Source of the DNA: Carallia brachiata
Taxonomy: Eukaryota > Streptophyta > Magnoliopsida > Malpighiales > Rhizophoraceae
Assembly: GCA_021464245.1 (NCBI GenBank)
Contig: JADCRB010000095.1
Span: 155,474 to 219,473 of the forward strand
Reading direction: 5' to 3'
DNA: 64,000 nt
Part shown: one piece after another, positions 14,690-58,860 of the stretch
How positions within the stretch are numbered: the stretch's first letter is position 1
Layout: every line of letters begins with the position of its first letter
The notes under the pieces: generated by a model
Databases searched by the model: none
What the model was told of the DNA's origin: nothing
The model's input: only the letters and a program-made list of their open reading frames with translations
Position numbers and translations under genes: made by a program

Positions 14690-16486
14690 TTTAAAAAAAA
14701 AAGAAAAAAAAAATTGTAGACATGCTTAATAAGGCATATAGAAAATACGAGAAAGACGTAGTAAATCTAAAAATATTTAACGATTTATTTAATTTTTTTA
14801 AATTGAACATATCTGTTACGATCTAATAATTCAGATCATTATTTATCTACGATACTCTCATAATTGCATGCCTACAAAATTTTTCTGTAAAAAGATCCTT
14901 TTAGAGAAAAAGAAAATAAGAACCCATTTTAGAATAGCCATATACATTTAGCAATTATAGTTAAAAATTTTGAAATGTTTTACAGCCTAATGCAAAAAAT
15001 TTTGTGGTCCTCCATATCTTCCATGTAAGCTAACGTAACTTCCATTGTTTAACTTTTGGAAATTCTATGTTGTCAAAAAAAAAAGAAAAACATTTGGGAA
15101 TTCTAGAATGCGTTTAGTACCAAGATTAGATAATATAAGATAATCAAATACAAGATACCTAAGTATGCTAAGCATCAAAATTAAGAGAAAGATGTGAGAG
15201 ATAGCAGAGAGAACAATGCCAAGAGTAAAGGCCATATAAGAAGTTTTGACTAATATTATATTATTTTACATATAGATATTTTAGAAAGTTTTCTTAAAAA
15301 AAAAAGTAAAACTGTAGACATGCTTAATAAGGCATATAGAAAATACGAGAAAGACGTAGTAAATCTAAAAATATTTAACGATTTATTTAGTTTTTTTAAA
15401 TTCAACATATCTTTTACGATCTAATAATTCAGATTATTATTTATCCATCATACTCTCATAATTGCATGCCTACAGAATTTTTCTGTAAAAAGATCCTTTT
15501 AGAGAAAAAGAAAATAAGAACCCACTTTAGAATAGCCATATACATTTAGCAATTATAGTTAAAAATTTTGAAATGTTTTACAGCCTAATGCAAAAAATTT
15601 TGTGGTCCTCCATATCTTCCATGTAAGCTAACGTAACTTCCATTGTTTAACTTTTGGAAATTCTATGTTGTCAAAAAAAAAAAAAACACTTGGGAATTCT
15701 AGAATGCGTTTAGTACCAAGATTAGATAATATAAGACAATCCAATACAAGATACCTAAGTATGCTAAGCATCAAAATTAAGAGAAAGATGTGAGAGATAG
15801 CAGAGAGAACAATGCCAAGAGTAAAGGCCATATAAAAGTTTTGACTAATATTATATTATCTTATATATAGATATTTTAGAAAGTTGTCTTAAAAAAAAAG
15901 TAAAACTGTAAACATGCTTAATAAGGCATATAGAAAATACGAGAAAGACGTAATAAATTTAAAAATATTTAACGATTTTTTTTTAAATTCAACATATCTT
16001 TTACGATCTAATAATTCAGATTATTATTTATCTACCATATTCCCATAATTGCATGCCTACAAAATGTTTCTGTAAAAAGATCCTTTTAGAGAAAAAGAAA
16101 ATAAGAACCCATTTTAGAATAGCCATATACATTTAGCAATTATAGTTAAAAATTTTGAAATGTTTTACAGCCTAATGCAAAAAATTTTGTGGTCCTCCAT
16201 ATCTTCCATGTAAGCTAACGTAACTTCCATTGTTTAACTTTTGGAAATTCTATGTTGTCAAAAAAAAAAAAAAACATTTGGGAATTCTAGAATGCGTTTA
16301 GTACCAAGATTAGATAATATAAGATAATCCAATACAAGATACCTAAGTATGCTAACCATCAAAATTAAGAGAAAGATGTGAGAGATAGGAGAGAGAACAA
16401 TGCCAAGAGTAAAGGCCATATAAGAAGTTTTGACTAATATTATATTATTTTACATATAGATATTTTAGAAAGTTGTCTTAATTGGT
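14690..16486. repeat. Tandem array, three copies of a ~595-bp unit
   Basis: The landmark TAGACATGCTTAATAAGGC (TAAACATG.. in copy 3) starts units at about 14716, 15314 and 15908, giving spacings of 598 and 594. The copies are nearly identical: scattered single-base changes and different poly(A) lengths. Each unit ends inside the left part of a MITE (AATGCGTTTAGTAC at 15107, 15704 and 16291). Only the last unit continues into the right part of that MITE. The array therefore arose by tandem duplication after MITE insertion, with a junction inside the MITE. No coding potential is evident. Confidence 0.9.
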
Positions 16487-33393: not shown

Positions 33394-33849
33394 GGCACAA
33401 TCTATATATATGGTCTGGACAAATCCTTTCAAACATTACAAAACATACAAATCAGGATGGCAATAATACTCCGTTGATGGCTTTCGATTGTGATATATTA
33501 ACATCCATAAATTATACGTGTACATTGTCCATATCATCAAGTCCAGCTCAAAGCTTGTCAGCGGATCAAATTTTTAAACCATTGAGAGGGATGATATATA
33601 TGTCCAATTTATTTGGCCAAAAGCGGCCATCCTAATTTGATGTATGAGTTGCTAGAATTTATTAAATTGTTTAGGCATATCACATAATTATAAATCAAAG
33701 ACAATCACTTATTATTATTTTTTTTGTAAGTTTCAGGTTCCCTCAATCATATCAATATGAATTAAAATATTTGGAGTTATATTTAGTTTCGTATAACTGC
33801 AAGTCATCACACTTGTAGGTTCAGACAGACTTATGAATTATTCGTACAA

Positions 33850-35145
33850 ATGCTTCATAGGTGAATTTGACATGGAGGGACTGGTGCTAAAAAAGATAAG
33901 GGGAATCTATTTCAATAATTAATCTCCTGGACAGATGAGTCACGTCCTCTTCCAAGAAAGCGATGTGCACTGAAGTCAAGGGCTCCAAATTTTTATTTTT
34001 GCTCACTTTGTGTGAGTTAGAAGCAGAGGGGGAGGGATGGATGGCAATCAAAGGTGGCCAAATGAAGTTGCCTTTGAATTGAGATGTCAAGTCGTTTTTC
34101 TCTTGTGACAAAACAAGCCACTCACTTTGAAAAAGATTACCTTGTTTTCAAGCTCTTGGTGATGAAAATTCTATGATTTTGGTTTCTTAAGTTGACAGGA
34201 TCATTATTGCATGGTCCAATGTCAAGTTGCTACTTAGTTATTTGGGTTTTTTTTGTTTTTTTTGTTTTTTAAACTCTAATTGTAGGAGATATTAACGTGT
34301 TTTTTTTATTGTTAATCAATTCTGTAGATCAATAGTTTTTACTTTCTATGAATTTAATTCCCACAAAAATTGTGAGCAGACTAATATATAAAAGAGGCTG
34401 TTATCCATGCACAAAAATTTTAGGAAAAATTTAATTTATTATTCCTATTTAATACGATTGGTAGGTTGCATGCTCTAATTTCACATTAAATACACCTAGA
34501 GACGTTGAGTTGCATGGTTATAGCCGACCGGCCTTTCCCAGGGAATGGAATTAGACATGAGATTACATAATAATTTTTTACCTCATTCAAGTTTAATTAG
34601 TACTTGGCATCCTCGAGACTGTATCTAAAGTTTGATAGCATAATTGTTTTGAGTTATTTGTTTTCTCATCAAATATAAATTGGATTTATTGGGGACATTC
34701 AAATGCTTCATACTTTTAATATCCATCTATTGAAAGTGTAACACTCTCACTTTATTAAAATATAAAGATTTAATATAACTTATAATGCGCATAAACTTAC
34801 TCACCTGAATAATTTATATTTGTGCTAAAATGCGCGTGCCATGGCCAACCTTAGCAACAGCTGTGATTTCTTTTATTTTTATTTTTTCTAAACAAACTGT
34901 GTCTTGTGATATATCTTTTGCACTAAACAACCATATCATGATGGTTGGACAAATTCATTTTCTTGCCAACCAAATTTTATTCCCTAGTTAAGGAGTATTA
35001 AAGGACAATTAATCAAGTAATTATGACCTTGGGGGCTGAATAAAGAATGCTCGTCTGACATACACTATATGCCCCGCCATGATTTCTTTTTGTTCATCCC
35101 ATGATTGTTATTATATATCTAGCAATCATGGCAATATTCAATCAA
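33850..35145. repeat. Segmental duplicate II, copy a
   Basis: Collinear with 38930-40170. It is strongest at 33890-34250 (for example GAATCTATTTCAATAAT, AAGAAAGCGATGTGCACTGA, AATCAAAGGTGGCCAAAT) and at 34830-35140 (CATGATGGTTGGAC, CCTAGTTAAGGAGT, TATATATCT.GCAATCATGGCA). Small minus frames at 33887-34111 are partly conserved in copy b, but with as many replacement as silent changes, so they are not supported as genes. Confidence 0.8.
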
Positions 35146-35301
35146 ACATCTTTTTTTTTTAAAAAAAAAAATTATTGGAGAGAGATGTACATAGATAGAG
35201 AGAAGTTATGCAAACAGCTTCATATTAGCTTTTAAATTCCCATTTTGCATCAATGTTAAAACATGTAATTAACGATCCCATTTCAAATTTGTCCATCATT
35301 T

Positions 35302-38929: not shown

Positions 38930-40170
38930 AATGCTTTGTAGGTCTAATTGAGATAAAGGGATAGTGCTAAAAAATGGATAAGAGGAATCTATTTCAATAA
39001 TCAAATCTTCTTGAGAGATGTGTCTTGTCCTCTCCCAAGAAAGCGATGTGCACTGATGTTAAGGGCTCAAAATTTTTTTTTCTTACTACTTTGTGTGATT
39101 TAGAACCAATGGGGGAGGAATGAATGGTAATCAAAGGTGGCCAAATCAAGTTGCCTTTGAATTGAGATGTAAAGTCGTTTTTCTCTAGTGACAAAACAAG
39201 CCACCCACTTTGAAAAAGACTACCTTGTTTTCAAAATCTGATTGATCAAAATTCCATGGCTTTGATTTGTAAGATTGTTGGATTCATTTTACGGTCCATT
39301 GTTAAGTTACTACTTTTAATTTGAACATGTTTTTTTTTTCCCTCTTTATGACGAGAGTATAAATTAACAGTGTATTTGTTATTCCTAATCAATTATATAT
39401 ATGTGTGCGTGCGCGCCTGCGTGTGTATATACATATATAGTTTTTATTTTCTATAAGGTTAATGCCCTCAAAAATTGTGAGTACAGTGATATTACATGAT
39501 TGTAGAGTGGATTATCCTTGCGTAATAATATTTGCAAGAATTTTATTATTCCTAATTGCTAATATCATTTGTATGTTGATTGCTTCGCATCAAATATGCT
39601 TAGAGATGTTGAGTTGTGAACTCCAATACATAACCAGGTCCTACAAAAGCTCAACATGTTTAATTACGTGAGAAACGACCTCATGTGGCTCTAGCTAACC
39701 CCATAAACTAGTTTGATATATATAAAAGCAATTCTTCTTGTTTAAACACCAGTTTTTTTTTTCTTTTTTTTGGTTCTTTTATTTTTAAACACCAGTGGAG
39801 AACAAAAAATTTGTGACTAAAATGCACATGCCATGCCATATGCAACCTTAGTTACAGCTGTGACTTCAGATTTCCTTTTTTCTACCAAAAAAAAATAAAA
39901 AATAAAAATCTGTGTCTTTGAGATATATCTTTCACGCTAAACAATCATACCCATGATGGTTGGACCAATCCATTGCCAACGAAATATTATTACCTAGTTA
40001 AGGAGTGTTAATGGACAATCAAGTGGCTATGAGCGGGGGGGCTGAAGAAAGAATGCTCTTCTGCCATCCACTGTATGCCGCGATGATTTCCTTTGTTAAT
40101 CCCGTGAGATTCTTATTATATATCTGGCAATCATGGCAGTATTCAATCAAAATCCTTGTTGCAAAAACAT
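38930..40170. repeat. Segmental duplicate II, copy b
   Basis: Partner of 33850-35145 at about 5.0-5.1 kb distance, same orientation. The similarity ends about 70 bp before the left LTR at 40245. A GTGCGTGCGCGC alternating tract lies near 39404-39426. Confidence 0.8.
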
Positions 40171-40244
40171 TAGTGGAGAGAGATAAAAAAAAGTCACATA
40201 TATATAATTATGAAAATGTCTCATTCTGTAAATAAAAATAACAC

Positions 40245-41069
40245 TGTAAAGCGTAAATTTCGAGTCTAAAACAATTAAACTCGAAAATACAAAAATAAAT
40301 TACAAATAAATATTTAAAAATAAAAGAAAATTTACGTGGGGTCGATCTCCGTAGATCTTCCGATTAGTGTTCCTTTTTTTGACTCCGTCAAGGGCTGCAC
40401 GAGCTTGATCTTGACAGAAATAAATTCCACAGATTTTTCTTAAACTGGGTAGACTGAAACCGGATCTGATTTGAACGTTTTTGACTACGGTTAAGAACCG
40501 TAGAGACCAAATCTGAGCTGATTTGGCTTAATTTCACCGAGGGTCGAAGGGACTTGTTCTCGGATGAGTTATCTGGATTTTGCTGAGGGCCGTATGAGGG
40601 TTAATCCCAGCCGGATTTGTAGTAATTTGATATTTTTAGATTTATATCATAAATTCAGATCTAGGGCGATCGGAAAATATAAATCTAAAAATAACTTTGG
40701 AAATGGAAACAGCAAATTTTTTTGGGCCTTACCCCTGAAATATCTCTCAAAAAGGAGTTAGGAGAGTAATACTGCAGAGTAAAAACACGTAAGAAAAGGA
40801 GAAATTTTCTTGAGAGATTTTTAAAATTTTCTTTTTCTCTCAAATTCTCTGGATTTTTCTGTTTACAGATTTGCTGAATGTGTTTTGAACTGGGGGGCAG
40901 GGGCCTATTTATAGGGTTCCTTTCCCATGTGAACATCACATGGGAAAGGAATCTTTTTAATTGAAAATATTTTTCAAAGTTGGCGTTGCCGACTTTGAAA
41001 TCGCAACGCCAATTTTGACTTTTCTTTTTTTTTTTTTTTTTTTTTTTTCCTTTGAAAATGATGTTTACA
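40245..41069 (-). repeat. Left LTR (3' LTR of the element)
   Basis: 825 bp, TGTAAA..TTTACA ends, directly beside the polypurine tract. About 40245-40915 matches the right LTR at roughly 95% by eye, mainly single-base changes and 1-2-nt indels. The TATA-like CTATAAATAG (minus) is at about 40906-40915. The remaining ~150 bp (U3 on the minus strand) is unrelated to the other LTR and contains two inverted repeats. Confidence 0.9.
40917..40951. repeat. Perfect 16-bp hairpin in the left U3
   Basis: TTCCTTTCCCATGTGA (40917-40932) and its exact complement (40936-40951) are separated by ACA. It lies immediately beside the TATA-like element. A second inverted repeat, TTGGCGTTGC/GCAACGCCAA, follows at about 40980-41013. 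Confidence 0.9.
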
Positions 41070-41084
41070 AATGCCCCCACTTCA
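41070..41084 (-). other. Polypurine tract of the retrotransposon
   Basis: On the minus strand GAAGTGGGGGCATT directly precedes TGTAAA of the 3' LTR. This is the usual plus-strand primer site, and it fixes the element's orientation. Confidence 0.85.
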
Positions 41085-41446
41085 AGGGTCGGTAAGGAAA
41101 AACTTTACAGACGTGATCCGCACCGAGTCTTGAAGTCCAGTTTGAAATTTGGAAACGTCCTGATGAACATTGAATCTTGGAGTCTTCTATCTTTGACCAT
41201 GCCTGCTGTTGTTGGATCGCAATAGGAACCCGATACGATCTTGAGAAAGTTAGCAGCCCAGCCAATATAGAAATTGAAGCCTTGGCTCCAGGTGCATTCG
41301 AACTTCTATAGCCCGCAAAGGATTTTTTATATCTCTTAAAGTTCCAGAGCTCTGGTGAGGATGATCCGGTAGGCAAAGAACTTGAACCTCCCCAAGAGGA
41401 AGGCCCAGCACTTTGGAACTTTAAGACCTGCGCACAGAGAGACGGG

Positions 41447-41734
41447 TTATGGTGATGATTCCCGAATCTGCTTCGACGTAAGGAGAGTAGTTGGAACTTC
41501 CCTGCACGTCGCTGCATTTGTAGATCCAGGAGGACGATCAGAACTTCTCGGCTCGCTGCGATAGATGTGAACTAAGGAGAGTAGTTGGAACTCCATGACA
41601 CCGATGGCGTTGGAGATTGAGTTTCGAGGGCTTTTAGGGATCCCTCGAAGAAGACTACTCCTTCTTTTCTTAGCTCGTGCGCCTCCAACTTCTTGATCGA
41701 AGAACTTCCTGAGACAAGTGCAGAGACTAGCCAT
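41447..41734 (-). CDS. Unrecognised 95-residue frame with its own TATA box, inside the retrotransposon
   Basis: ATG at 41734-41732 in a strong plant context (AAAATGGC) opens 95 codons ending at 41447. It starts MASLCTCLRKFFDQEVGG and continues with a basic segment RAKKRRSS. It lies about 60 nt after a TATATATAT tract on the minus strand, in a leader typical of a plant gene. It sits between the WOX copy and the 3' LTR. The sequence TAAGGAGAGTAGTTGGAACT (+) occurs twice, near 41478 and 41575, a ~97-bp internal direct repeat. I do not recognise the protein. It may be a second captured gene fragment or an element-specific extra ORF. Confidence 0.4.
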   Translation of the reverse strand: MASLCTCLRKFFDQEVGGARAKKRRSSLLRGIPKSPRNSISNAIGVMEFQLLSLVHIYRSEPRSSDRPPGSTNAATCREVPTTLLTSKQIRESSP

Positions 41735-41788
41735 TTTCTTTTGAGAAAGAAGAGCTGAGGGGTGAATATTACAACTCGGGCATGCAAG

Positions 41789-41797
41789 ATATATATA
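41789..41797 (-). promoter_or_regulatory. TATA-like box ahead of the 95-residue frame
   Basis: TATATATAT on the minus strand, about 55-62 nt before the ATG. Promoter activity is inferred only from position. Directly upstream (+ 41812-41841) is a 30-base poly(A) on the minus strand. Confidence 0.3.
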
Positions 41798-41807
41798 CAA
41801 ATAATAA

Positions 41808-41842
<35 letters not shown>

Positions 41843-41935
41843 AAAAGTCAAAAAAGGTATGCAGAATCGGATAGGGCCATCCACGTCCCTTTCCTGCATA
41901 AGAGACAAAAGAGGCAGCGGCTGACGCGTGTCACG

Positions 41936-42017
41936 AAAGTCGTTACCGTGTGTGGCAGAAGTCGTTGCCGTGTGCTGCGGAAGTCGTTGCCGCGTGCTGC
42001 AGAAGTCGTTGCACCTT
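41936..42017. repeat. 21-bp tandem repeat just after the WOX stop
   Basis: AAGTCGTTGCCGTGTGCTGCGG-type units are repeated about 3.8 times with a few changes. They lie in the probable 3' UTR of the WOX copy (stop at 42033) and form frames on both strands that should not be read as genes. Confidence 0.85.
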
Positions 42018-42032
42018 ATCTTGTCGGCCGTC

Positions 42033-42674
42033 CTAGCGGGGCCCGAGGTGCAACTCCAAGTCAAGCTCGACCTCGTCTGGTGGGCCGATGATGTTGATGT
42101 CAACGTCGACGTCGCTTTCCGGCTGGTTGATGCTGCCGGAATATTCTGGAAAGAGAGGCAAAGTTTCGCCGGAATGACTCCTTTCTGCTAGAAAATGTCC
42201 TCCTAGACTTAAGTACCTAGAAGGGATGAACCCTTGGCTGACTCCGTAAGACCACCAGGACCAGCGTGCATGCTCCCATGGGCTACGGCTTTGATGAACA
42301 TACCGTGGAGAGACTATTGCGTGGAAGAACTCGGACCTGCTTCATTTGACGGCGAAGTTGTACTGGTGGGATCTACATCGGAACAGCAGACTGTTCTTTG
42401 AAAAATCAGCTCTCAGTGCTGGTTTCTTCCTGCTTCTCCGATTCTGGAACCAATAAAACACATTTTTTCCTTCGATTGCCCCGAGTGGGCGCAATCGTGA
42501 GACAAGTTGGTAAATCTGAGATGCATTAGGCATAATACCTCCATTGTTGTGGAAGACTTCCTCTAGAATTTGCAGTTGCGCCATGGTTGGTTGCCACCTT
42601 GTGCGGGGTGACCTTTCTTCTCCCTTGTCTTGAGGTTCTGCAACTGGTTCATCTTTCTTGTGGCAGAGGAGCAA
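42033..42674 (-). pseudogene. Captured WUSCHEL-related homeobox (WOX) gene inside the retrotransposon
   Basis: From 42674 one minus frame encodes a WOX-type homeodomain: TRWQPTMAQLQILEEVF (helix 1), then SQIYQLVSRLRPLGAIE and the recognition helix GKNVFYWFQNRRSRKK. A TGA at 42344-42342 interrupts. The same frame then runs 102 codons to TAG at 42035-42033, containing a WUS-box ETLPLFPEYS, an acidic ESDVDVD stretch and a C-terminal EAR-like LDLELHLGPR. WUS-box (TLxLFP) and EAR (LxLxL) motifs define WUS-clade transcriptional repressors; homeodomain, WUS-box, EAR is WUSCHEL's own order (family knowledge). Total length of about 213 codons suits a compact WOX. No intron interrupts the homeodomain. 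The nearest upstream ATG (42652) is one base out of frame. It lies in sense with gag-pol between integrase and the 3' LTR. It is probably not functional as it stands. Confidence 0.85.
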
Positions 42675-42739
42675 AGGTTGGTGTGTGGTGAAGATCGATT
42701 GAGACTGATGCTGAGTTTCAGACTCAAACCCTCCGTTGC

Positions 42740-42746
42740 TTTTATA
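42740..42746 (-). promoter_or_regulatory. TATA box ahead of the captured WOX
   Basis: TATAAAA on the minus strand (within AAATATAAAAGC), 88-94 nt before the ATG at 42652, followed by a C/A-rich leader (CTCAATCGATCTTCACC..). The arrangement is that of a plant core promoter plus 5' UTR. If it came with the gene, capture was from genomic DNA rather than a mature mRNA. Confidence 0.4.
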
Positions 42747-42779
42747 TTTTTGGGCCGTTCACAGTTTATACTCATGCGG

Positions 42780-43037
42780 GCCAGGAGTTGGATTGATTTT
42801 GAACCTGGTTTCTGGACTGTGTTTAGAACTTGGAATTTTTTGGGTTTTGGGCTTTGAATTGAATTTGGGTTGATTTGGATTTGGGTTTTTGGATCGAGTG
42901 TTTGGGTTTGGACTTTTGGATTTGGGTTGAGTGTTTGGGTTTTGGACTTAGTTTTGTGTTTTCTGAATTGGGCTCAAGTGTTTGGGTTTGGATTTTGGGT
43001 TTGGATTTTCGCTTGGACTTTCAGATCGGGACTTCCG

Positions 43038-43040
<3 letters not shown>
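42780..43040. repeat. Degenerate GTGTTTGGGTTTGGA-type repeats
   Basis: Irregular copies of GGGTTTGGATTT/GAGTGTTTGGG fill this stretch between the WOX leader and the poly(T) tract. It is non-coding low complexity. Confidence 0.6.
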
Positions 43041-43073
<33 letters not shown>

Positions 43074-43113
43074 ATTTTTTATTTTTTTTTTTTTTTTTGA
43101 TTTTTTTTTTTGA

Positions 43114-43183
<70 letters not shown>

Positions 43184-43211
43184 ATTTTTTTTTTTTTTTT
43201 TTTTTTTTTTT
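43041..43211. repeat. ~170-bp poly(T) tract (poly(A) on the element's sense strand)
   Basis: Almost pure T with a few interrupting G/C/A bases. It lies directly after the end of the integrase region in element orientation and before the captured region. Lys-only or Phe-only frames here are artefacts of the repeat. Confidence 0.95.
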
Positions 43212-43244
43212 CAAACATATTTACACATAATATGTTTCAGAAAT

Positions 43245-44400
43245 TTACCATTGATTGGGCCGATTCGGACGCCTTCTTGGTCTGACAGCATGTAAGCGTT
43301 GTGAGTGTAGGCCTCCTGCACTAAGTATGGCCCCCCATTTGGAAGTAAGCTTGTCACCAGGCCGATGCTTCATGTTGATGGGCCGTCGCACTGCAAGAAC
43401 AAGGTCTCCAACTTGAAAAGATCGAGGCGGACCCTGCGGTTGAACGTGTTGGTGAGCCGGGCTTGGTAGCACTCAAGTTGCTGTTGTGCTTCGAGCCTCC
43501 TTTCATCGAGAGCTTCTAACTCATCCAGACGTAGGCGAGCATTCTCCTCCTGTGTGAGTCCTTCCAGAACAGCCATGCGCAGGGATGGAATCTGTGTTTC
43601 CAACGGCAGTATTGCTTCGACACCGTAGACAAGTGAGTATGGCGTCGCCTGTGTTGGAGTCCGGTAAGTTGTACGATACGCCCATAATGCCTCCGGAATT
43701 CTGTCATGCCAATCTCTTTTGGATTTAGAGACTACCTTCCGCAACAGGTTGCATAAGGTCTTGTTGAATGCTTCGCCAAGCCATTTGCTGGGGCATTGTA
43801 CATGGATGACTTGTACTGCTTGAACTTGAACTTCTCGCAGAGCTTGTCATTAAGCTGTTGTAGAACTGCTTACCATTATCAGTGATGATGAATCGAGGGA
43901 CTCCATAGCGATAGATCAGCTGAGTCCGGATGAAATTGGCAACATGCTCCTTCTTTACCTCTCTAAGTGGAATGGCTTCAGCCCATTTTGAGAAGTAGTC
44001 GGTTGCTGCGAGGATGTACAGGTGACCTAGGGATGACTTTGGCAAGGGCCCCACTAAGTCGAGACCCCAAGCTTCAAAGGGCCAGGATGAGACAGTTGGA
44101 TGCAGTGGCTCCGGTGGTTGATGTATGTAATTCGCATGAAATTGACAAGCTTGACAGGTTTTAGCAAACTCAATTGAATCACGTACCATGGTTGGCCAGT
44201 AGTATCCCATCCTTCTGAGTTGGAAGTGCAACTTAGGCCCTTGATGTCCGCCACAAACACCAGAATGTGCTTCAGTGAGAGCCTGTTTTGCCTCTTCATT
44301 GGCTAGGCAGCGAAGTAACTCCATCAAAAGACCTTCGATACAGAGCATCCTTGAGATATATGAAGCGGGGAGCTCGTCGTTGAATTTCTGTCTTATGACG
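43245..44400 (-). pseudogene. Retrotransposon integrase (frameshifted)
   Basis: The HHCC zinc-binding part is seen in EAHSGVCGGHQGPK..CQACQFH. The core has AWGLDLVGPLPKS and IITDNGKQF (first two acidic residues of the D,D,E triad). After a frame change comes a NKTLCNL-like block and then WHDRIPEALWAYRTTYRTPT, the usual C-terminal part of the core. FQVGDLVLAVRRPI and a GPY/F-like end follow at about 43245-43470. At least two frame changes (near 43750-43830 and 43400) break it. Confidence 0.85.
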
Positions 44401-44599
44401 ACGATCTTCGGGCAGCTTCCCGTGCTGTAGGTAGTCAATGATTGGTTGGCGCCAATCCTCGTCCTCCGCGAGACGTACAGATACAGCGTTGGCTGCTGTA
44501 GTTTCTTCATCATCCTTTGTGGCACTATCCATTTCTGGCATACGGCAACAACTGTAGCCTGGATTTCTGACTTTGCAAGAGAAGTGGCCAGGTTAGCCA

Positions 44600-45209
44600 A
44601 CGCGTCTGCCTGAGTGTTTTCTCGTCGAGGCACATGCTCCAAGGTGATGCTTTCAAATTCATCCATTAGCTGTCGAGCACGTTGATGGTAAGGCGCAAGG
44701 TCCTCTTTCTTCATCATACAATCCTGTAAGTTGGTTGATGACGAGCTGGGAATCTCCATGGACTTCTATAGTTGGAATCTTCATATCGACAGCCATTTGA
44801 AGACCAATGATCAAAGCCTGGTATTCAGCAACATTATTTGAACATAACTCACCGAGAATGATAGCATATGGTAGTATTTGTCGTTGAGGAGTGACAAACA
44901 CTATACCGGCACCAGCACCATCACGCCTTGCTGCACCATCAAAGAACATCGTCCATGGTGGCAGTGTCTCAATGTAAAAGACCTCTTCATCTGGAAGATC
45001 ATCTGTGAACTCCCAATCGACGGAACAGGGTGATCTGCAAGGAAGTCTGCTAGAGCTTGTCCTTTGACTGCTTTTTGAGGCACGTAGACAATGTCGTAGC
45101 TTTGTAGGATTACTGCCCACTTGGCAAGTCGTCCTGACAAGATTGGTCTAGATAAGATATATTTGACAGGATCAGCTCTGGCAATGAGACGTACCGTGTG
45201 AGCCTGCAT
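44600..45209 (-). pseudogene. Second, archaeal-type RNase H domain of the retrotransposon
   Basis: WTMFFDGAARRDGAGAGIVF, NNVAEYQALIIGLQMA and VHGDSQLVINQL give the D..E..D catalytic series of an additional RNase H, ending with RRENTQADALANLA. This extra domain after the normal RNase H is diagnostic of Tat-lineage elements. A frame change lies near 44750. Confidence 0.85.
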
Positions 45210-46663
45210 GTAGTGCCTCAGCTTGTCAATGGCAAAGAACAGTGCTAGACATGTCTTTTCAATGGGCGAATAACTCAGTCCGGACCGTTTAGTGTTCTGC
45301 TCAAGTAATACAGGGCAACTTCCTTTCCCTGCTCGTTTTCCTGTGCAAGCAAGGCTCCCAAAGATCTTTCCTGCGCTGCAATGTAGAGAATCAACGACTT
45401 TCCTTGAATTGGAGCTCCCAGGACTGGTGGATTGGAAAGGTACTTCTTTATGCTCTCAAAGGCTTTGCTGCAAGCTTCGTCCCACTCGAAGTTGACATCC
45501 TTCTTCATCAACCGATGGAAAGGTTGACATCTCCCAGCTAAATTGGAGATGAAACGGCGAATGTAGCCAGCTTTCCTTGTAGACTTCGCAGCTCGTGCAG
45601 GTTTTTAGGTTCAGGCATCTTTTGAATTGCCTCAACCTTTGACTGATCAACTTCGATTCCACGATGGCGCACCACGAACCCAAGAAACTTTCCTGATGTG
45701 ACACCGAATGCGCACTTGAGAGGGTTCATTTTGAGCTGATGCCTCCGAAGTCTTTCGAACACTGTCTTGAGATCCTCGAGGTGGTCTTTGCGCTTCTTAG
45801 TCTTTACAACTAAGTCATCAACATAACATTCTACAATCTTGTGCAGCATGTCATCAAAAATTTTTTGCATAGCACGTTGATAAGTGGCGCCAGCATTTTT
45901 AATCCAAACGGCATAACTTTGTAGCAGTATATACCTTTTGGGGTGCGGAATGCTGTCAACTCCTCGTCTTCTGGTGCCATTCTGATTTGGTTATAGCCTG
46001 AAGAACCATCCATGAAAGACAATGCTTCGTGACCCGTTGTTGCATCGACTGTGATCTCCGTTATGGGCAACGGAAAGTCATCTTTCGGGCAGGCCTTGTT
46101 AAGATCTCGAAAATCAACACATACCCTCAACTGTCCATTCTTCTTTCTTACGGGACAATGTTGGCAATCCACGTTGGGTAGGTGACCTCTCGGATGAAGC
46201 CGGCATTGATCAGCTTGTTCACCTCCTCCTCGATTTGTGGAATGAGTTCCGGGCGGAACCGTCGTTGTGGCTGCTTGACAGAACGGACACCCTTCTTTAC
46301 TGCTAGACGATGCACCGCAATTTTTGGGTCAAGTCCAGGCATTTCTTTGTAACTCCATGCGAACACGTCCCTGTATTGACTTAATACCTGAACATATTCT
46401 TGCTCTTCTTCTGCAGTAAGTAAAGCACTTACAAATGTAGGTCGAGGATCTTCCGGAGAGCCAAGATTGACCTCCTTGAGTTCATCAACAGTTGCTTGGC
46501 CACCGTCTTCAAGTTCCGGGGGAGCCTCCTTCACTTCACCATCTGATGAGTCGGAATCAGCCTCCTCGCTAATTGTGACATGAAATGCAGAACCTCTGAC
46601 TTCACCTTCTTTGTTTGACTGGATAAGCCTGTCTGTTTGGTGTGGTGGTGATGGCACGTGCAT
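45210..46663 (-). pseudogene. Reverse transcriptase and RNase H of the retrotransposon (frameshifted)
   Basis: The N-terminal part is 46148-46663 (QPQRRFRPELIPQIEEEV..NAGFIREV). The palm is 45831-46172 with VDFRDLNKACPKDDFPLP and FMDGSSGYNQI. After a one-base loss in an A run near 45905, 45538-45870 carries the catalytic ECYVDDLVVK and the thumb. 45275-45511 holds the connection and RNase H start (LGAPIQGKSLILYIAAQE, VALYYLSRTL). At least three frame changes make it non-functional. Confidence 0.9.
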
Positions 46664-46976
46664 CAGCTGCTCGGCTTCGGCTCTTTAGCGTGATCCGCAC
46701 AGGTGACTTCTCCTGATAGCCTAAGCCAGGTCGGGACTGTGATGTTTGAGAAGCGGCGCCATGTGTGGACGGCAGCGTACCCATTGTGCTCGGGTTTGAA
46801 AAGTCATAGCCCGCCTTTGCCAAAAGCTTGTATGCATTAGGATCAAATCCTTCATGTGTTCTTCTTTCTGGAAGTGAGCCGCCTTCGACTGCCCCCGTGT
46901 GGTTTGACGAAGCCTTTTAATGGTTTTGAAGATAAAACCGGCTCAATCTTTGGTATCGGCAGAGTGTAAGTCTCCT

Positions 46977-47873
46977 TCAGGTTGTGCAGCTCCTTTGTTT
47001 TGGGTTGGCTATGTCCTTGCTCCTGTTTAAGATCAATACAATAAGAGAAAGGGGGTTGACCTTCTGAGCGTCGTGACTTAGGCACATAGCGTAGGACTGG
47101 AGTGGAGCTTGAAGATGCAACATCCTTCGACGAAGTTCAGCAGGCTGTGGCAGCTTTTCATTTGTTGGAGCCTGGGGTTGGGCATTGGCAGGTTCTTCGA
47201 CAGCTTTTCCCTTTTTGTGGATGCCCCCAGTCCAAGTAGCTTTTGATGGAATGATCTCCGGATTGTCTGTGTCGGTGTAGAAGACTGCATCCGCCAAATG
47301 TGATTCAGCATCATCGAACGGCTTTAAGTCAGCATTGACCTTTTGAACGCCACCATTGTAGTACTTGAAGCACTGATGCAGGCTTGAGAGCACAACTCCA
47401 TTTCCATGAATCCACGGTCGTCCTAGCAACATCTTATATGTGGTACGTGCATCAATCACGTGAAATAGAGTGCTAGAAGTGAGATTACCGATAGTTAGCT
47501 CCAAGCGAATCATCCCAATTGCTTTCTGTCCTCCTTGATTAAAGCCATGAATCATCAAGCGGCTGTCTGATAATTCATCAATGCCGATGCCGAGCTCCTT
47601 TATGGTGGATTTTGGGATAATATTGACTGCTGAGCCATCGTCGATCAGAATACGTCGGACCTTCTGTTCTCTCACATAGCCTGATACATACAGCGGCCGA
47701 TTGTGGGGTTTGGACCCCAGCAGGAGATCCTCATCTGAAAATGAGATAGCAGAGTAACATCCGACGTGATTTTGGTCCGCCTGTTGCTCCGTGAGTGAAT
47801 CATTGATGGCTGATTCAGCTGAGGTCTGGAGAGTATTGCTGACTTGATTTTGCCACACTTCTGTTGATTGCAA
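46977..47873 (-). pseudogene. Retrotransposon aspartic protease region
   Basis: A 298-codon frame with the retropepsin motif ILIDDGSAVNIIP (the DDGS at residues 78-81) and, further on, GRPWIHGNGVVLSSLHQC, a conserved block of plant Gypsy proteases. It continues into a linker before RT, with a further frame change near 46980-47080. It is the longest intact stretch of the polyprotein. Confidence 0.85.
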
Positions 47874-48043
47874 AGCTATAAACAGCTGAGGGTTAGCGAG
47901 AAGGGTTTGGAGAGCTTCATATACCTTCTCCGTTGTCGACTTTTTGTTGTCGAGCGGCTCCTCCTTACGTGTGTCACCTCTGATGGTTTTGAAGTGATGG
48001 TGGTTGGTTTGCCGAGGTTACGCCTTCCTGGTCCAGAATGATT

Positions 48044-49658
48044 TTATTCTGGCTTTTGAGCTTCATGATTAGCTCCTTCAGGACGAAACTTCTCGGTTGG
48101 ATGACTTACTATCCGGTGATATTTGCAGAATCTCGGATCGCTGACTCGATCCTTTTCATTCGGCCGCTTGCACTCTGGGAGTTCGATCAGCTTCGCCTCC
48201 AGAGTTGTCAAGATGTCGGGGACGTCTGAGTCGGGGAATGGATACTGCTTCTGCTCCAACTCTCGCAATGTCACCTTCCGCCTTTCCTGTTGTTTTGGCT
48301 GAGTTATTTGGGTCGGAGGATTTACCTTGGCTTTGCCCCACTTTTACTGGTGCGGCTTCAACAGTCATCACTTCTTTCCTTTTCCGGAGCTGTTGGGTTT
48401 CTTAATCTCCCTTCTGCCCCCTTGCTGGTCCAACTGGATGGGAACCGTGCCTCCAAGTCTGGATGCTTATCTCCATATCATGTGCGCGGGTCGCCAATTC
48501 TTCGAAAGTTCGGGGTTTGACACCCTGCAGGATGTATAACAGCTCCCAATGCATTCCTGGATGCACATCTCCACGGCAGAAGTCTCCGTCAGGCGATCTT
48601 TGCAGTCCAAGCTGAGGGCACGCCATCTGTTGATGTATTCGACAACGGGCTCTCCTTTCTTTGTTTGGTGCTGGTAAGCTCCATCATACTTACCGTCCTT
48701 CGAGTGCTGAAAAATCTGTTGAGGAACTCTCGTTGTAGCTGTTCCCAACTGTCGATCGATTCTGGTTCAAGATTTATGAACCAGGTGAAAGCGGTCTCCC
48801 TGAGTGAACGAACAAACTGCTTCACCAAGAGATCTCCGTAAGTCCCTGCGTTGTTGCAGGTTTCAACGAAGTGGGCGATGTGCTGTTTGGGATCGCCTCG
48901 TCCGTCGAATTGTTGAAATTTGGGCGGCTGGTAGCCCAAGGGCATGTTGAGACTTTCGATCCGTCTGGTGTACGGTTTGACGTACATCTGTGATCCTTGG
49001 AAGGATGTAGCTTGTTGCAGTCGGATCGTATTGGCTATCATTTCCTGCAATTGTTGAACAGATAGCGAAGCTACAGAATTTGAGGGTGGCAGCTGTGTAG
49101 AACTACCTGGTCGCTTTTCTGCAGGGAAGACGTCGGCTGGTGTGGCTTCTGGAGTGAAACCGGGTGGATATGGTTGCTCCTCGCGGATTTCGGGATCAAC
49201 TTGGATCGGGGCTTTTCCTTTGAGAGCGGCGATCTGTTGATCTTTTTCCTCCACGACTCTGATCAGCTGCAAAATTTTGTTCTCCAATTCTGAAATTCTT
49301 TCCTCTGTGCTGGTTGTGTTGGTCATCATGACGGCAACAGATGAGGCTCCGGGAAAGACTGGGGGAGAAACTCTTCTGATTCTTCTGTGTGAGTCGGATT
49401 TTGTTGAGCAGGCTTCGTCGTGTTGCCCCCGACTTCGATCGGGGTGGGTGATCGACTCCTCCATGCGGCAAGAGAGTCAGGGGAGAGATCCTGTTGTGCG
49501 AGCTGTGGACTCTCCATTTCGATTTTGTCGGGTTTGGACGGCAAGAAATTGTGTCCGTCCCCGGGTTTCTGGACCTGCGTACCCAGGTAGGGTAGTTGAT
49601 GCAGGCAATGGAGCCGTTGCCTTCTTTTTGTGGCAGCAGTACTCCTTTTCGGTGCCAT
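48044..49658 (-). pseudogene. Retrotransposon gag (frameshifted)
   Basis: ATG at 49658 (MAPKRSTAATKRRQRL) begins a leader segment that shifts frame near 49450. The main part, 48589-49464, has a coiled-coil-like ERISELENKILQLIRVVEEK, then YQPPKFQQFDGRGDPKQHIA and the retrotrans-gag core W..LEPESIDSWEQLQREFLNRF. Later parts are in two other frames (48467-48748, 48402-48626), ending with a [17 protein letters not shown] block. At least three frame changes. Confidence 0.85.
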
Positions 49659-49679
49659 TTGATGTGCTGAACACCTGTA

Positions 49680-49845
49680 AAATTTTTTTTTTTTTTTTTA
49701 CTTTTTTTTTTTTTTTTTTTTTACTTTTTTACTTTTACTTTTTACTTTTTTTTTTTACTTTTTACTTACTTTTTTTTTTACTTTTTTTTTCTTTTTTTTT
49801 TTTTCTCTCTCGCTCCCTTTTACCTCTTTTTTTTTTTTTTTTTTA
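49680..49845. repeat. T-rich TTTTTAC low-complexity tract in the element's leader
   Basis: Poly(T) broken by regularly placed AC/C bases, between the gag start and the primer-binding site. Confidence 0.9.
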
Positions 49846-49871
49846 AGGAACAAGAGATGGGAGGTGAAGAT

Positions 49872-49889
49872 GTCCCACCGAGCGTGCCA
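49872..49889 (-). other. Primer-binding site candidate
   Basis: The + strand sequence GTCCCACCGAGCGTGCCA ends in CCA six bases before the right LTR. Its complement (TGGCACGCTCGGTGGGAC) would therefore pair with a tRNA 3' end of that sequence. TTTTTGGC right after the 5' LTR is the position expected for Tat elements. I cannot name the tRNA with certainty. Confidence 0.7.
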
Positions 49890-49895
49890 AAAATT

Positions 49896-50937
49896 TGTAA
49901 AGCGTAAATTTCGAGTAAAACAATTAAACTCGAAAATACAAAAATAAATTACAAATAAAAATTTAAAAATAAAAGAAAATTTACGTGGGGTCGATCTCCG
50001 TAGATCCTCCGATTAGTGTTCCTTTTTTGACTCCGTCAAGGGCTGCACGAGCTTGATCTTGACAGAAATAATTCCACAGTTTTTCTTGAACTGGGTGAGA
50101 CTGAAACCGGATCTGATTTGGACGTTTTGACTACGGTTAAGAACCGTAGAGACCAAATCTGAGCTGATTTGGCTTAATTTCACCGAGGGTCGAAGGGACT
50201 TGTTCTCGGATGATTTGCCTGGATTTTGCTGAGGGCCGTGTGAGGCTTAATCCCAGCCGGATTTGTAGTAATTTGATATTTTTAGATTATATTATAAATT
50301 CAGATCTAGGGCGATCGGAAAATATAAATCTAAAAATAACTTTGGAAGGAAACAGCAAATTTTTTGGGCCTTACCCCTGAAATATCTCTCAAAACGGAGT
50401 TAGGAGAGTATACTGCTAAGTAAAAGCACGTAAGAAAAGGAGAAATTTTCTTGAGAGATTTTCAAAATTTTCTTTTTCTCTCAAATTCTCTGAATTTTTC
50501 TGTTTACAGATTTGCTGAATGTGTTTTGAACTGGGGGGTAGGGGCCTATTTATAAGGCTTTCTTTCGTGTGAGAAATGTAATTTCAATTTGAAATTAATT
50601 CCCCACAGCTCCTGTGTGTCTTTTCTGTGATTGGCTCCTTCCTTCTCTGGAGATTTTGAGCCTATTTATAGGCTAGGAGAGGCACTGTACCACCAACTTT
50701 CGTTGATTTTTTTTTTTTTTTCTTCTTCTGCTAACTTTGATTTTTTTTTTCTTTTTTTTTTCAACTTCTGGAAGCTGATATTTGATTTTTCTTTCCTCTT
50801 TTTTTTTTCTTCATCTGCCTAACTTTGATTTTTTTTTTTTTTCTTTTCAACTTCTAGAAGCTGACATTTGAGTTTCTTTCCCTTTTTTTTTTTTTTTTTT
50901 CATCTGCCGAACTTTGATTTTTTTTTTTGTCTTTACA
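49896..50937 (-). repeat. Right LTR (5' LTR of the element)
   Basis: 1042 bp with TGTAAA..TTTACA ends. 49896-50550 matches the left LTR at about 95%. The rest is a different, longer U3. It contains a second CTATTTATAGG (TATA-like on minus) near 50663 besides the one at about 50547. It also has roughly two and a half tandem copies (about 50729-50930) of an ~85-90-bp unit: CTAACTTTGATTT..TTCAACTTCT(G/A)GAAGCTGA.ATTTGA plus poly(T). Confidence 0.85.
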
Positions 50938-56376: not shown

Positions 56377-58475
56377 CTATTCAATAAAATTGACACGAGG
56401 GACGTGAGAGATTTTGGACCAATCTTCTCCCTTCTCCTTGTTGTAGTGTTCTTCCAGAAGCTGGCTTCTATAGATTGCCAGTGTATGAAGAAGCATTCTA
56501 TTTTGCAGAATATAATAATCTGGCAGTGCTTTCAATCGTCGACACCCATAAATTTCCAGAGCCAAAGGGATGGCATTACCCAGTGAAGTCTCCAAGGCTT
56601 CTAGCAAATGATCTTATTGCTTCTTCTGCTCCTACATGTGGTACAGGAGAAAAAATAAGCACCAATTTAGTGAGGTGTTCCTTTTTCTTGAGCTCTGCTT
56701 TCTTTGCCTCACCCACTCTGAGGATTATATGCACCCAAATTATACAAATGATAAGACTTCTTCGAAGTTGGTTCAGGTTCCTCAGATATCCAAGAGAAAA
56801 TGCACCATCCCCATCATAGTCAACATAAACCTCCTCTAATGTCCTGCTAGGACCAGTTAATTGCGCAATCCCTTTTGGCAACCTACTGTAGCAGCCTTCA
56901 TTAGAAAGATGCCTCAAGTTAATTAGATTTCCAGTCCCGAGAGGCAACCTCAAATAATGGCTGTCGGTAACATCTATGGTCTGCAAAATATGCATAATCA
57001 CCTTTTTTGTGTCTCGACGATCTAACATGTGCTAATTCACTGAATAATCTTGATCACTCTTCTGTTTGTAAGCGGTAACCGTCCATGTGCTGGTCCCCAT
57101 AACGAAAGGCTTCACAATTTTTTGGTACCGTCAAAAGAATTAAGGGTGACCTATGACTTGCAAAACCTATACATACATATTTATTTATTTTATTTAAAAA
57201 TTATAAGTTAATTATTTTATTACTGTTGCCTTAAACTCTTTTCTGTATTTTTTTCCGTTCTTAATAAATTTTTTTTCTTTATCTATAATTTTTCTCCACG
57301 TTATAATTTTTTATGTAAAATCTATTTCTTTTCATTTCATTTACTTCATCTATCACATTTAATTCTGTAACACTGCTAAAGCCAACTACCCACGCATTTG
57401 TGCCGTTGGATCGATGTAGTTTTGGATTTGGTGTGGTGGGCAACAGTGTACGGCATCAAAGCCATAAGATTTGGCAACGAATCTTCATTTGTTTACATAG
57501 TGAACCCATGGCCGAGGCAACATTCTTTTTGCGTGTGATGACTAAAATTTTACTTCTTAGTGAACCAAACTTAAGAGATTGTTCAAATTATCCCACTTTG
57601 AAGGGCTTTCTTCCCACACATTGTCCGTAATAAGAAGTATTTTTTTATTCTCAATAGATTCTCCTATTTTTTTCAACAAGCTCTCCAATTCTGTGACCCC
57701 TAAAGTAGAGCCTAAGAGAGATTCAAGAATTGCCTTGGCAACCCTAGTCTCATCAAAATGATCAGACCCAAATTTCATTTTCAAAATGGGCCTTTATCCT
57801 ATCATCGTTAAAGGCAAATTGGGCAAGAGTTGTCTTGCCGGTACCTCCCATCCCCACAATTGAGATAACACGGAGGTCTGGTTTGTCACAGTCATCACTA
57901 GGATCATTCAATAACATATTGACCAAGACATTTTTATCCTGATCGCTACCCTTCACCTCTGTTACGTCAACCATAGAGATGGTCATAGGTCGCTCAATAT
58001 GTGGGTCGCCCTCTATCGAAGCAAATTTATATCGTTCTTTCTCCTGAGCCATAAGGTCTATCTTTTCATTCAGCCCTTTTATCCTGTTAGCGATGTCATG
58101 ACGCAGATGCAGACCATCTTGTATACAACAAAAGCAAGAGGACCGTAAGAAGGAGCATACCTTCCTCTTTTGCTTCGGATCCTGTCGATCTCCATGTTTG
58201 CCTTGTGAGCTGAGAATCGCAGCTTCCCAATCGTCCAACACGTCTTCAGTGTCACAAGCGACATCTTTGAGTTTCTCCAGCCAGTCTCTGACGGAGGCCT
58301 CCTTCACTTGCTTTGTCTCTGCATCAGTAATCACGGCTTGGATGGCTTTGAGATTGCTGGTCAGCTTCTCAACTTCTTTTTCAACACCCATAACAAGCCT
58401 CACCTCTTGTTCTACCTCACGAACCATGATGGAGCCAAGCTGCTCCACCACAAAAGAAACAAGTGCCTCAGCCAT
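56377..58475 (-). pseudogene. CC-NB-ARC-LRR disease-resistance gene relic (RGA type)
   Basis: ATG at 58475 opens MAEALVSFVVEQLGSI, the usual start of a coiled-coil (Rx_N) NLR, with an EDVID-like DTEDVLDDW at about 75-83. NB-ARC follows: P-loop GMGGTGKTT at residues 208-216. The frame stops after ENEIWV (57764) because a short deletion shifts it. 57557-57784 continues with FDETRVAKAILESL and kinase-2-like LLITDNVWEE. RNBS-B (SKILVITRKK) is in yet another frame near 57550. The GLPL/ARC2 part is missing and replaced by AT-rich sequence (57030-57400). LRR pieces remain at 56576-57028 (LPLGTGNLINLRHL, SLGYLRNLNQLR) and 56377-56607 (LKALPDYYILQ, GEDWSKISH). Intact relatives are intracellular immune receptors; this copy cannot encode one. 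Confidence 0.9.
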
Positions 58476-58860
58476 TACTACGGTAACCCAAGCAAGAAAC
58501 CGATGGATCAAAGGAAGGGAAAGCTGAACTACAAAGAACCAGTATTTCTTCTGCTTAGATTGATGTCCGGAGGCTATCTGCGTTCCCTTAAATAGGCTAA
58601 TGATGCTTACTAAGAACTGAAATCATCAAGATCTGTTCATTCGATGATGTAATGATAATGCCAAGCAATGTATCGATAAAGTACAATATGGTTTCTTACA
58701 CAGTTTCTGTACAATCCGATCTTTAACTTTGGCTAAAGCAAAAGCGTCATTTGTTAATGTTTGGTACTTTTAGCATATAGTCTGCTAGCAAATACCTTTC
58801 TTAGGATAATTATAAAGCACATTCTCAATTCTGTCTACAAGTAAGGGCATATGAGAAAAT
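58476..58860 (-). promoter_or_regulatory. 5' flank of the resistance-gene relic
   Basis: Upstream sequence of the pseudogene. 58630-58860 is similar to 61890-62110: AAAGTA(C)AATATGGTT.CTTAC, a GCAAAAG(C/T) block and the AGCACATTCTCAATTCTGT / GGACATTCTAAATTCTGT block. Similarity between copies suggests it duplicated with the gene. Confidence 0.5.

Follow-up and report, generated by a model that had tools for sequence, protein, structure and literature searches.

A WUSCHEL-like homeodomain gene as a putatively selected accessory gene of a Tat-type Ty3/Gypsy retrotransposon family in Carallia brachiata

Plant long terminal repeat (LTR) retrotransposons are known to transduce pieces of host genes, for example Bs1 of maize (available parts of PMC7264820 and PMC13317346). 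The available text of PMC7264820 distinguishes such transduced genes, which occur as a single copy or a few, from additional open reading frames (ORFs), which are kept in most copies. In Tat/Retand elements, extra ORFs between pol and the 3′ LTR are common, most of them antisense TRP28 frames (PMC11963269, in its accessible part). Orchid Gypsy elements are described with an AlkB m6A demethylase ORF, and the extra domains of plant elements named in the accessible text of PMC9289625 are AlkB, G-patch, KOW, ArgoL2, B3, CHROMO, PMD and AIR1; the strings ‘homeo’ and ‘wus’ are absent from that text, as they are from the accessible text of PMC13317346. In the literature that we searched, partly available and with most subscription journals absent, we found no plant LTR retrotransposon described as carrying a homeodomain. 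Here we describe a gene resembling WUSCHEL (WUS) inside a Ty3/Gypsy element of Carallia brachiata (GenBank assembly GCA_021464245.1, contig JADCRB010000095.1, positions 155,474 to 219,473). This whole stretch of 64,000 nucleotides is called the window, and all positions below refer to it. We consider it probable that a multi-copy Tat-type Gypsy family carries this WUS-like transcription factor as a selected accessory gene, derived from an old capture.

The WUS-like cassette joins both of the classes named above, as it would be a transduced gene and an additional ORF at once. Like the additional ORFs of Tat/Retand elements, it is an extra gene between pol and the 3′ LTR that is kept in most copies and thought to bind DNA. 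Those ORFs are mostly antisense, however, and none is named a homeodomain in the accessible part of PMC11963269, whereas this gene lies in sense and is of a host transcription-factor type. It shares with Bs1 the presence of host gene sequence within an LTR element, but differs in that it appears to be standard equipment of a large family. The orchid AlkB elements are similar in that a plant Gypsy family acquired a host-type domain and kept it through many rounds of replication (PMC9289625, available in part), although AlkB is an enzyme acting on RNA and the present gene encodes a DNA-binding developmental regulator by type. With WUSCHEL and the WUS-clade WOX proteins it has in common the homeodomain length, the base-reading residues, the WUS box and an EAR-like end; it differs in its roughly 50% homeodomain identity, in its place outside the sampled WUS clade (with middling support) and in being encoded by a mobile element. 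A further likeness is to another Tat-group extra gene, the accessory gene of Grande, which going by a paper title reportedly has its own promoter and encodes a nuclear protein.

The WUS-like block occupies 42033..42758 on the minus strand of an element at 40245..50937, also on the minus strand. It lies in sense between the integrase (43370-44765) and the polypurine tract (41072-41080), inside the LTRs, which is where the original prediction had put it. Two ORFs make up the block, 42342-42758 and 42033-42341, as the frame is broken in this copy. The first encodes a homeodomain of WUS length (42423..42605, minus strand, RTRW...RSRKK), identified by Pfam (PF00046, E 8.6e-13), by fold and by its two sequence matches in the PDB, of which WUSCHEL is the best (E 9.7e-19) and STENOFOLIA the other; the WOX identity first proposed for it therefore holds. 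In the second ORF we read the WUS box TLPLFP (42147..42164, minus strand) and an EAR-like LDLELHL (42045..42065, minus strand) ahead of the stop, the ORF ending LDLELHLGPR. The original prediction saw all three features in one minus frame, 42776-42033, interrupted by a single TGA. The features are indeed there, but that frame holds two TGAs, and in the window copy the stretch from homeodomain to WUS box has lost the frame, which other copies keep open. The E-values rule out a chance match, as does the presence of the block at 48 further places.

These places come from searches of the host genome, covering 337.5 Mb in 164 contigs. A homeodomain-family search returned about 100 WUS-length matches of near-equal score by our own count (150 scored of 1349 candidates), many of which sit in open frames of about 229 amino acids, and in a search with the window ORF all 150 scored places, of 2273 first-look candidates, were at least 72% identical. 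All copies from these searches were chosen by homeodomain score or identity, and the twenty that were fetched also for their 229-amino-acid open frame. The order of integrase end, WOX block and 3′ LTR was that of the window in 20/20 fetched copies, on many contigs and at 94-99% identity, with the polypurine tract 0.72-0.96 kb past the block in every one and a steady distance to the LTR. The 3′ flanks were all different in the 13 readable copies. Among a further 30 loci, the window included, the block and the stretch that follows it were present in 30/30 and the integrase end lay within 1.5 kb in 24/30. Together these 50 copy rows represent 49 places, since L028 and L056 are the same place; L029 is the window. 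We also searched with the integrase end only, scoring 40 of 972 first-look candidates. By eye, 12 of the 40, the window included, adjoin known WOX places; ten of the remaining 28 were sliced (121 bp), and the block was found in 10/10, one slice spanning the end of the block. With the block in all ten copies chosen by integrase, the WUS-like gene seems to belong to the normal make-up of a large Tat-type Gypsy family and not to be a single transduction. The suggestion that the block could be amplified with its element is borne out by these counts.

The integrase-chosen copies also provide evidence on selection. Homeodomains were read from five of them, and two, L087 and L088 on different contigs, are alike and represent a second version with 80% protein identity to window 42423-42605. 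Over the 183 bases of the homeodomain the window and L087 differ by 14 amino-acid and 15 silent changes, which gives a silent divergence (dS) of 0.53, an amino-acid-changing divergence (dN) of 0.10 and a dN/dS of 0.20, with p between 0.0004 and 0.004 by mutation model. As this comparison was chosen by integrase, a dN/dS of 0.20 at dS 0.53 argues that the homeodomain protein is selected. The integrase ends of L087 and L088 (622 bases), however, are 99% identical to that of the window. Diverged versions next to nearly identical integrase ends suggest that the WUS-like cassette has been swapped among elements by recombination. Old versions of the gene thus appear to ride one young backbone, with the cassette itself long under selection. 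Plant silent rates are 0.7-1.3e-8 per year, and at these rates a dS of 0.53 would mean some 20-40 million years, a span that reverse transcription could shorten.

Of the 50 rows, 26 have a reading frame that is open all the way from the ATG through the LDLEL..R stop, namely 19 of the 20 picked for a 229-amino-acid open frame and seven of the other 30, so that the overall share of open copies is biased by the choice of copies. In 23 of the 26 open copies the WUS box reads TLPLFP or TLSLFP; the exceptions are L026 (TLPLFL), L052 (ILPLFQ) and L015, in which it is out of frame and which we left out of the counts that follow. From shortly before the WUS box onward, the ratio of amino-acid-changing to silent polymorphism (pN/pS) was 0.43 in 25 copies. 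Downstream of the homeodomain, the internal branches of the copy tree carry 19 amino-acid-changing (N) and 18 silent (S) changes, fewer N than the neutral share of 0.72 (p 0.007), while terminal branches carry 49N/21S (p 0.43). This deficit on internal branches, together with neutral terminal branches, points to selection during replication of the element and none after insertion, as one would expect for a gene that belongs to an element. As a control, the integrase was long enough in six of 20 copies and gave a pN of 0 and a pS of 0.03. The DNA-binding part of the gene likewise shows signs of upkeep by natural selection.

The gene may also be expressed separately. A TATA box (TATAAAA, 42740..42746, minus strand) stands 12 bases into the block and about 95 ahead of the ATG, at the same place in 50/50 rows. 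The integrase end is out of reach in six of these rows (L035, L037, L041, L046, L047 and L051), and all but L035 have 3-12 units with GAGTATAAA, each bearing a TATA box, upstream of the WUS-like ORF; in L037 and L046 these units are 44-bp tandem repeats. A piece of gag is present in L046 and L051, a piece of the 5′ LTR end in L047, and by eye an end like the tail of pol in L041 and L047. On the basis of these pieces we take L037, L041, L046, L047 and L051 as a class with pol deleted. The fixed TATA box and the TATA-bearing repeats suggest that the WUS-like gene has its own promoter.

Several results weigh against a selected accessory gene from an old capture. The shared position of the TATA box is partly due to common descent. 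Known WUS sites (TGAA, TGAA pairs, TAAT, TTAATGG and TCACGTGA) show no consistent excess over shuffles in eight LTRs, single LTRs deviating both ways (L015 has 21 TGAA with 13.9 expected, L009 has 11 TAAT with 6.5 expected). Regulation of the element by itself through classic WUS sites in its LTRs thus gains no support from these eight, and the target may instead be host genes, or binding may have changed. The sample of 25 open copies holds 16 distinct coding sequences, and both the homeodomain pN/pS of 0.05 in these copies and the homeodomain tree counts of 1N/6S and 2N/9S are biased low, because the homeodomain, by score or identity, guided the choice of copies. The linker, with a pN/pS of 0.66, evolves loosely, and the 16 codons preceding the homeodomain have amino-acid changes and zero silent ones. 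Three of the five integrase-chosen homeodomains are window-like but broken. The window copy itself has no target-site duplication, its flanks CAGTC and GTGTT offering no matching 5-bp pair, and its LTRs have R-U5 in common (95%) but unlike U3s (40925-41069 vs 50567-50937), with the TATA box at the same site. The U3s that differ past the TATA box and the missing duplication suggest that this copy is probably a recombinant, or else has exchanged a promoter module; the missing duplication was not counted against family membership.

Finally, among the 30 copies that were not selected for an open frame, 23 lack one over the full length (24 of the 50 rows overall). This is what one would see if a captured host WOX merely hitchhiked on the element and frames were open only in copies still young, a scenario that we regard as unlikely. 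The neutral-looking terminal branches after the homeodomain fit it as well, and gene pieces are transduced by plant LTR elements such as Bs1 (PMC7264820 and PMC13317346, both available in part). A passenger should not, however, show the deficit of amino-acid changes on internal branches, nor versions at a dS of 0.53 whose homeodomains differ with a dN/dS of 0.20 in a comparison that was not chosen by homeodomain.

As for the origin of the gene, we read 15 host pieces of 301 bases, which proved to be 11 host WOX homeodomains and four further element copies. By their motifs, the 11 are presumably two WUS, two WOX1, one WOX2, one WOX3, two WOX4, one WOX5 and two WOX13. Two of them (L072 and L073) are ordinary host WUS homeodomains, and WOX1, WOX4 and WOX13 are also paired, as after a genome duplication. 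The element homeodomain is 41-51% identical to each of the 11, so no donor above 51% is found among them. No close relative above 52% was found among 5.8 billion proteins, in a search limited to candidates sharing exact words within length limits, where one protein, P0003, reached 54% over the homeodomain alone; nor did a viral-contig collection scanned with the WOX and integrase ORFs hold a relative. The element versions group in one clade (support 100/99 and 99/99) on the trees computed from 26 and 27 homeodomains. This clade is placed beside the sampled WUS-clade genes, joined to them at 90/86 and 88/85, and those genes without the element group at 90/90 and 85/91. A union of the element clade with WUS proper is not rejected by the approximately unbiased test (p 0.077 and 0.173). 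These trees are built on 65 columns, which are too few to settle the placement, and a fast-evolving copy can be pulled outwards.

The original prediction had the element transduce nearly a whole developmental regulator. The 41-51% identity to host WOX genes, the separate clade in the proposed tree with those genes and the purifying selection speak against a recent transduction of a host gene, and suggest an old capture of a gene of WUS-clade type. One could still imagine a recent capture from a fast-evolving host WOX paralogue, the divergence having arisen in the host. The host homeobox set was read in part (150 of 1349 candidates scored, WOX8/9/11/12-type genes not being among the 15 pieces), which leaves some room for such a paralogue. 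That said, the low identity to all 11 host homeodomains makes this quite unlikely, as do the element-specific residues shared by versions at a dS of 0.53 in one clade (99/99). For the small RNAs against host WOX genes that were also envisaged, perfect matches outside the recognition-helix codons look unlikely, judging from the roughly 50% protein identity. An artefact of assembly or recombination, with a host WOX locus caught between mis-joined pieces of different elements, is very improbable, since the same arrangement in 20/20 copies on many contigs and the block in 10/10 integrase-chosen copies rule it out for the family, leaving room for it only in details of the window copy such as its unlike U3s and missing target-site duplication.

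The element in the window is a decayed copy, recognized by its LTR pair, ends and domains; its outer 5′ border is putative. All of its features lie on the minus strand. The 5′ LTR (49896..50937), in which the part beyond the TATA box (U3) is unlike the U3 of the 3′ LTR, is followed immediately inside by a putative primer-binding-site-like TGGCACGCTCGGTGGGAC (49872..49889), read from sequence. Pfam places gag (Retrotrans_gag, PF03732, E 1.5e-7; 48589..49476), the 3′ part of reverse transcriptase (PF00078, E 9.3e-16; 45538..45990), a second RNase H (RVT_3, PF13456, E 3.4e-12; 44659..45147) and integrase (43370..44765) in Gypsy order between the LTRs, spread over many frames. Integrase occupies two frames, with H2C2 and core found by Pfam (PF17921 and PF00665) and the C-terminal part by eye; a protease match was weak (E 0.0012) and below the cut-off. 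An additional RNase H (aRH) between RNase H and integrase is a mark of Tat and in angiosperms implies Ogre or Retand, according to the accessible part of PMC6317226, and the RVT_3 domain before integrase accordingly places the window element in the Tat group (Ogre/Retand-like). Downstream of pol follow an A-rich low-complexity tract (43041..43210), the WUS-like block, 22-bp tandem repeats directly 3′ of its ORF (41922..42009), the polypurine tract GTGGGGGCA (41072..41080) and the 3′ LTR (40245..41069), delimited by the blastn LTR pair and located ends. Between pol and the 3′ LTR of the window copy and of L011, neither TRP28 nor any other Pfam match was found in the other ORFs searched on both strands, these being about 70 amino acids or longer, minus most of the frames that contain long stretches of K or F.

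By blastn the LTR pair 40245-40924 and 49896-50566 is 95.3% identical. The Kimura two-parameter distance is 0.039 for the window pair and 0.018 for L025 (620 sites outside U3); because the U3s differ, no age is drawn from the window pair. CATGTGA occurs twice in four of the eight LTRs, and in the window the two occurrences are the arms of one palindrome, CCTTTCCCATGTGA / TCACATGGGAAAGG (40907-40961), directly upstream of the TATA box of the 3′ LTR. Elsewhere in the window, repeated stretches of 73-75% identity lie at 33849-35186 and 38930-40184, the second ending next to the 3′ LTR of the element, and copies of a 0.6-kb unit stand head-to-tail at 14698-16481 (96% identical). Remnants of a CC-NB-ARC-LRR resistance gene (Rx_N, NB-ARC, R13L1 LRR) with broken frames are found on the minus strand at 56576-58622. 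The best match of an XTH exon, at 90%, is to Rhizophora mucronata; among the 120 matches listed of 259, the next one reaches 82%. By itself this suggests a host in the Rhizophoraceae or closely related to them.

The predicted protein is consistent with a DNA-binding function. In an AlphaFold2 model of 138 residues a three-helix homeodomain is formed, with 53 residues above a predicted local distance difference test score (pLDDT) of 90, the remainder mostly low and a mean of 69.9. The eleven best Foldseek matches are homeodomains of WUS or STENOFOLIA, the best being the WUS homeodomain on DNA. The residues by which WUS reads bases are R38, Q89, N90 and R94 (PMC7203112, available in part). All four are kept in the element homeodomain, as are 23 of the 25 residues invariant across 17 WUS-clade proteins, while ten of the 36 variable ones are the commonest residue. 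TLPLFP and LDLELHL resemble motifs by which TOPLESS co-repressors are recruited. The element protein may therefore be a nuclear DNA-binding regulator.

We propose that a gene of WUS-clade type was captured long ago and became an accessory gene about 207 codons long, which lies in sense after pol and ahead of the polypurine tract and has a homeodomain, WUS box and EAR-like end. Expressed from its own TATA promoter, its nuclear product would bind DNA and recruit TOPLESS-type co-repressors through TLPLFP and LDLELHL. The element would benefit by regulating its own or host genes in cells that are important for its spread.

Which cells these might be is more speculative. In plants the germ line is not set apart early but arises from the stem cells. 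We put forward, tentatively and as an improbable idea, that a working WUS-like regulator operates in the host's shoot stem cells or embryos, where a cell state, or a transcriptional or silencing state, held by the regulator of the element would favour germ-line passage. If this were true, the family would be a plant counterpart to a retrovirus carrying a host developmental regulator. At a more practical level, copies of the element may inflate the number of WOX genes counted in such genomes. The family also offers a natural experiment on the changes that a homeodomain undergoes after release from its developmental role. As far as can be judged from the copies compared here, a large retrotransposon family carries a WUS-like regulator gene as a regular component under selection, and a selected gene of stem-cell-regulator type on a mobile element makes the manipulation of meristem programmes by retrotransposons a testable idea.
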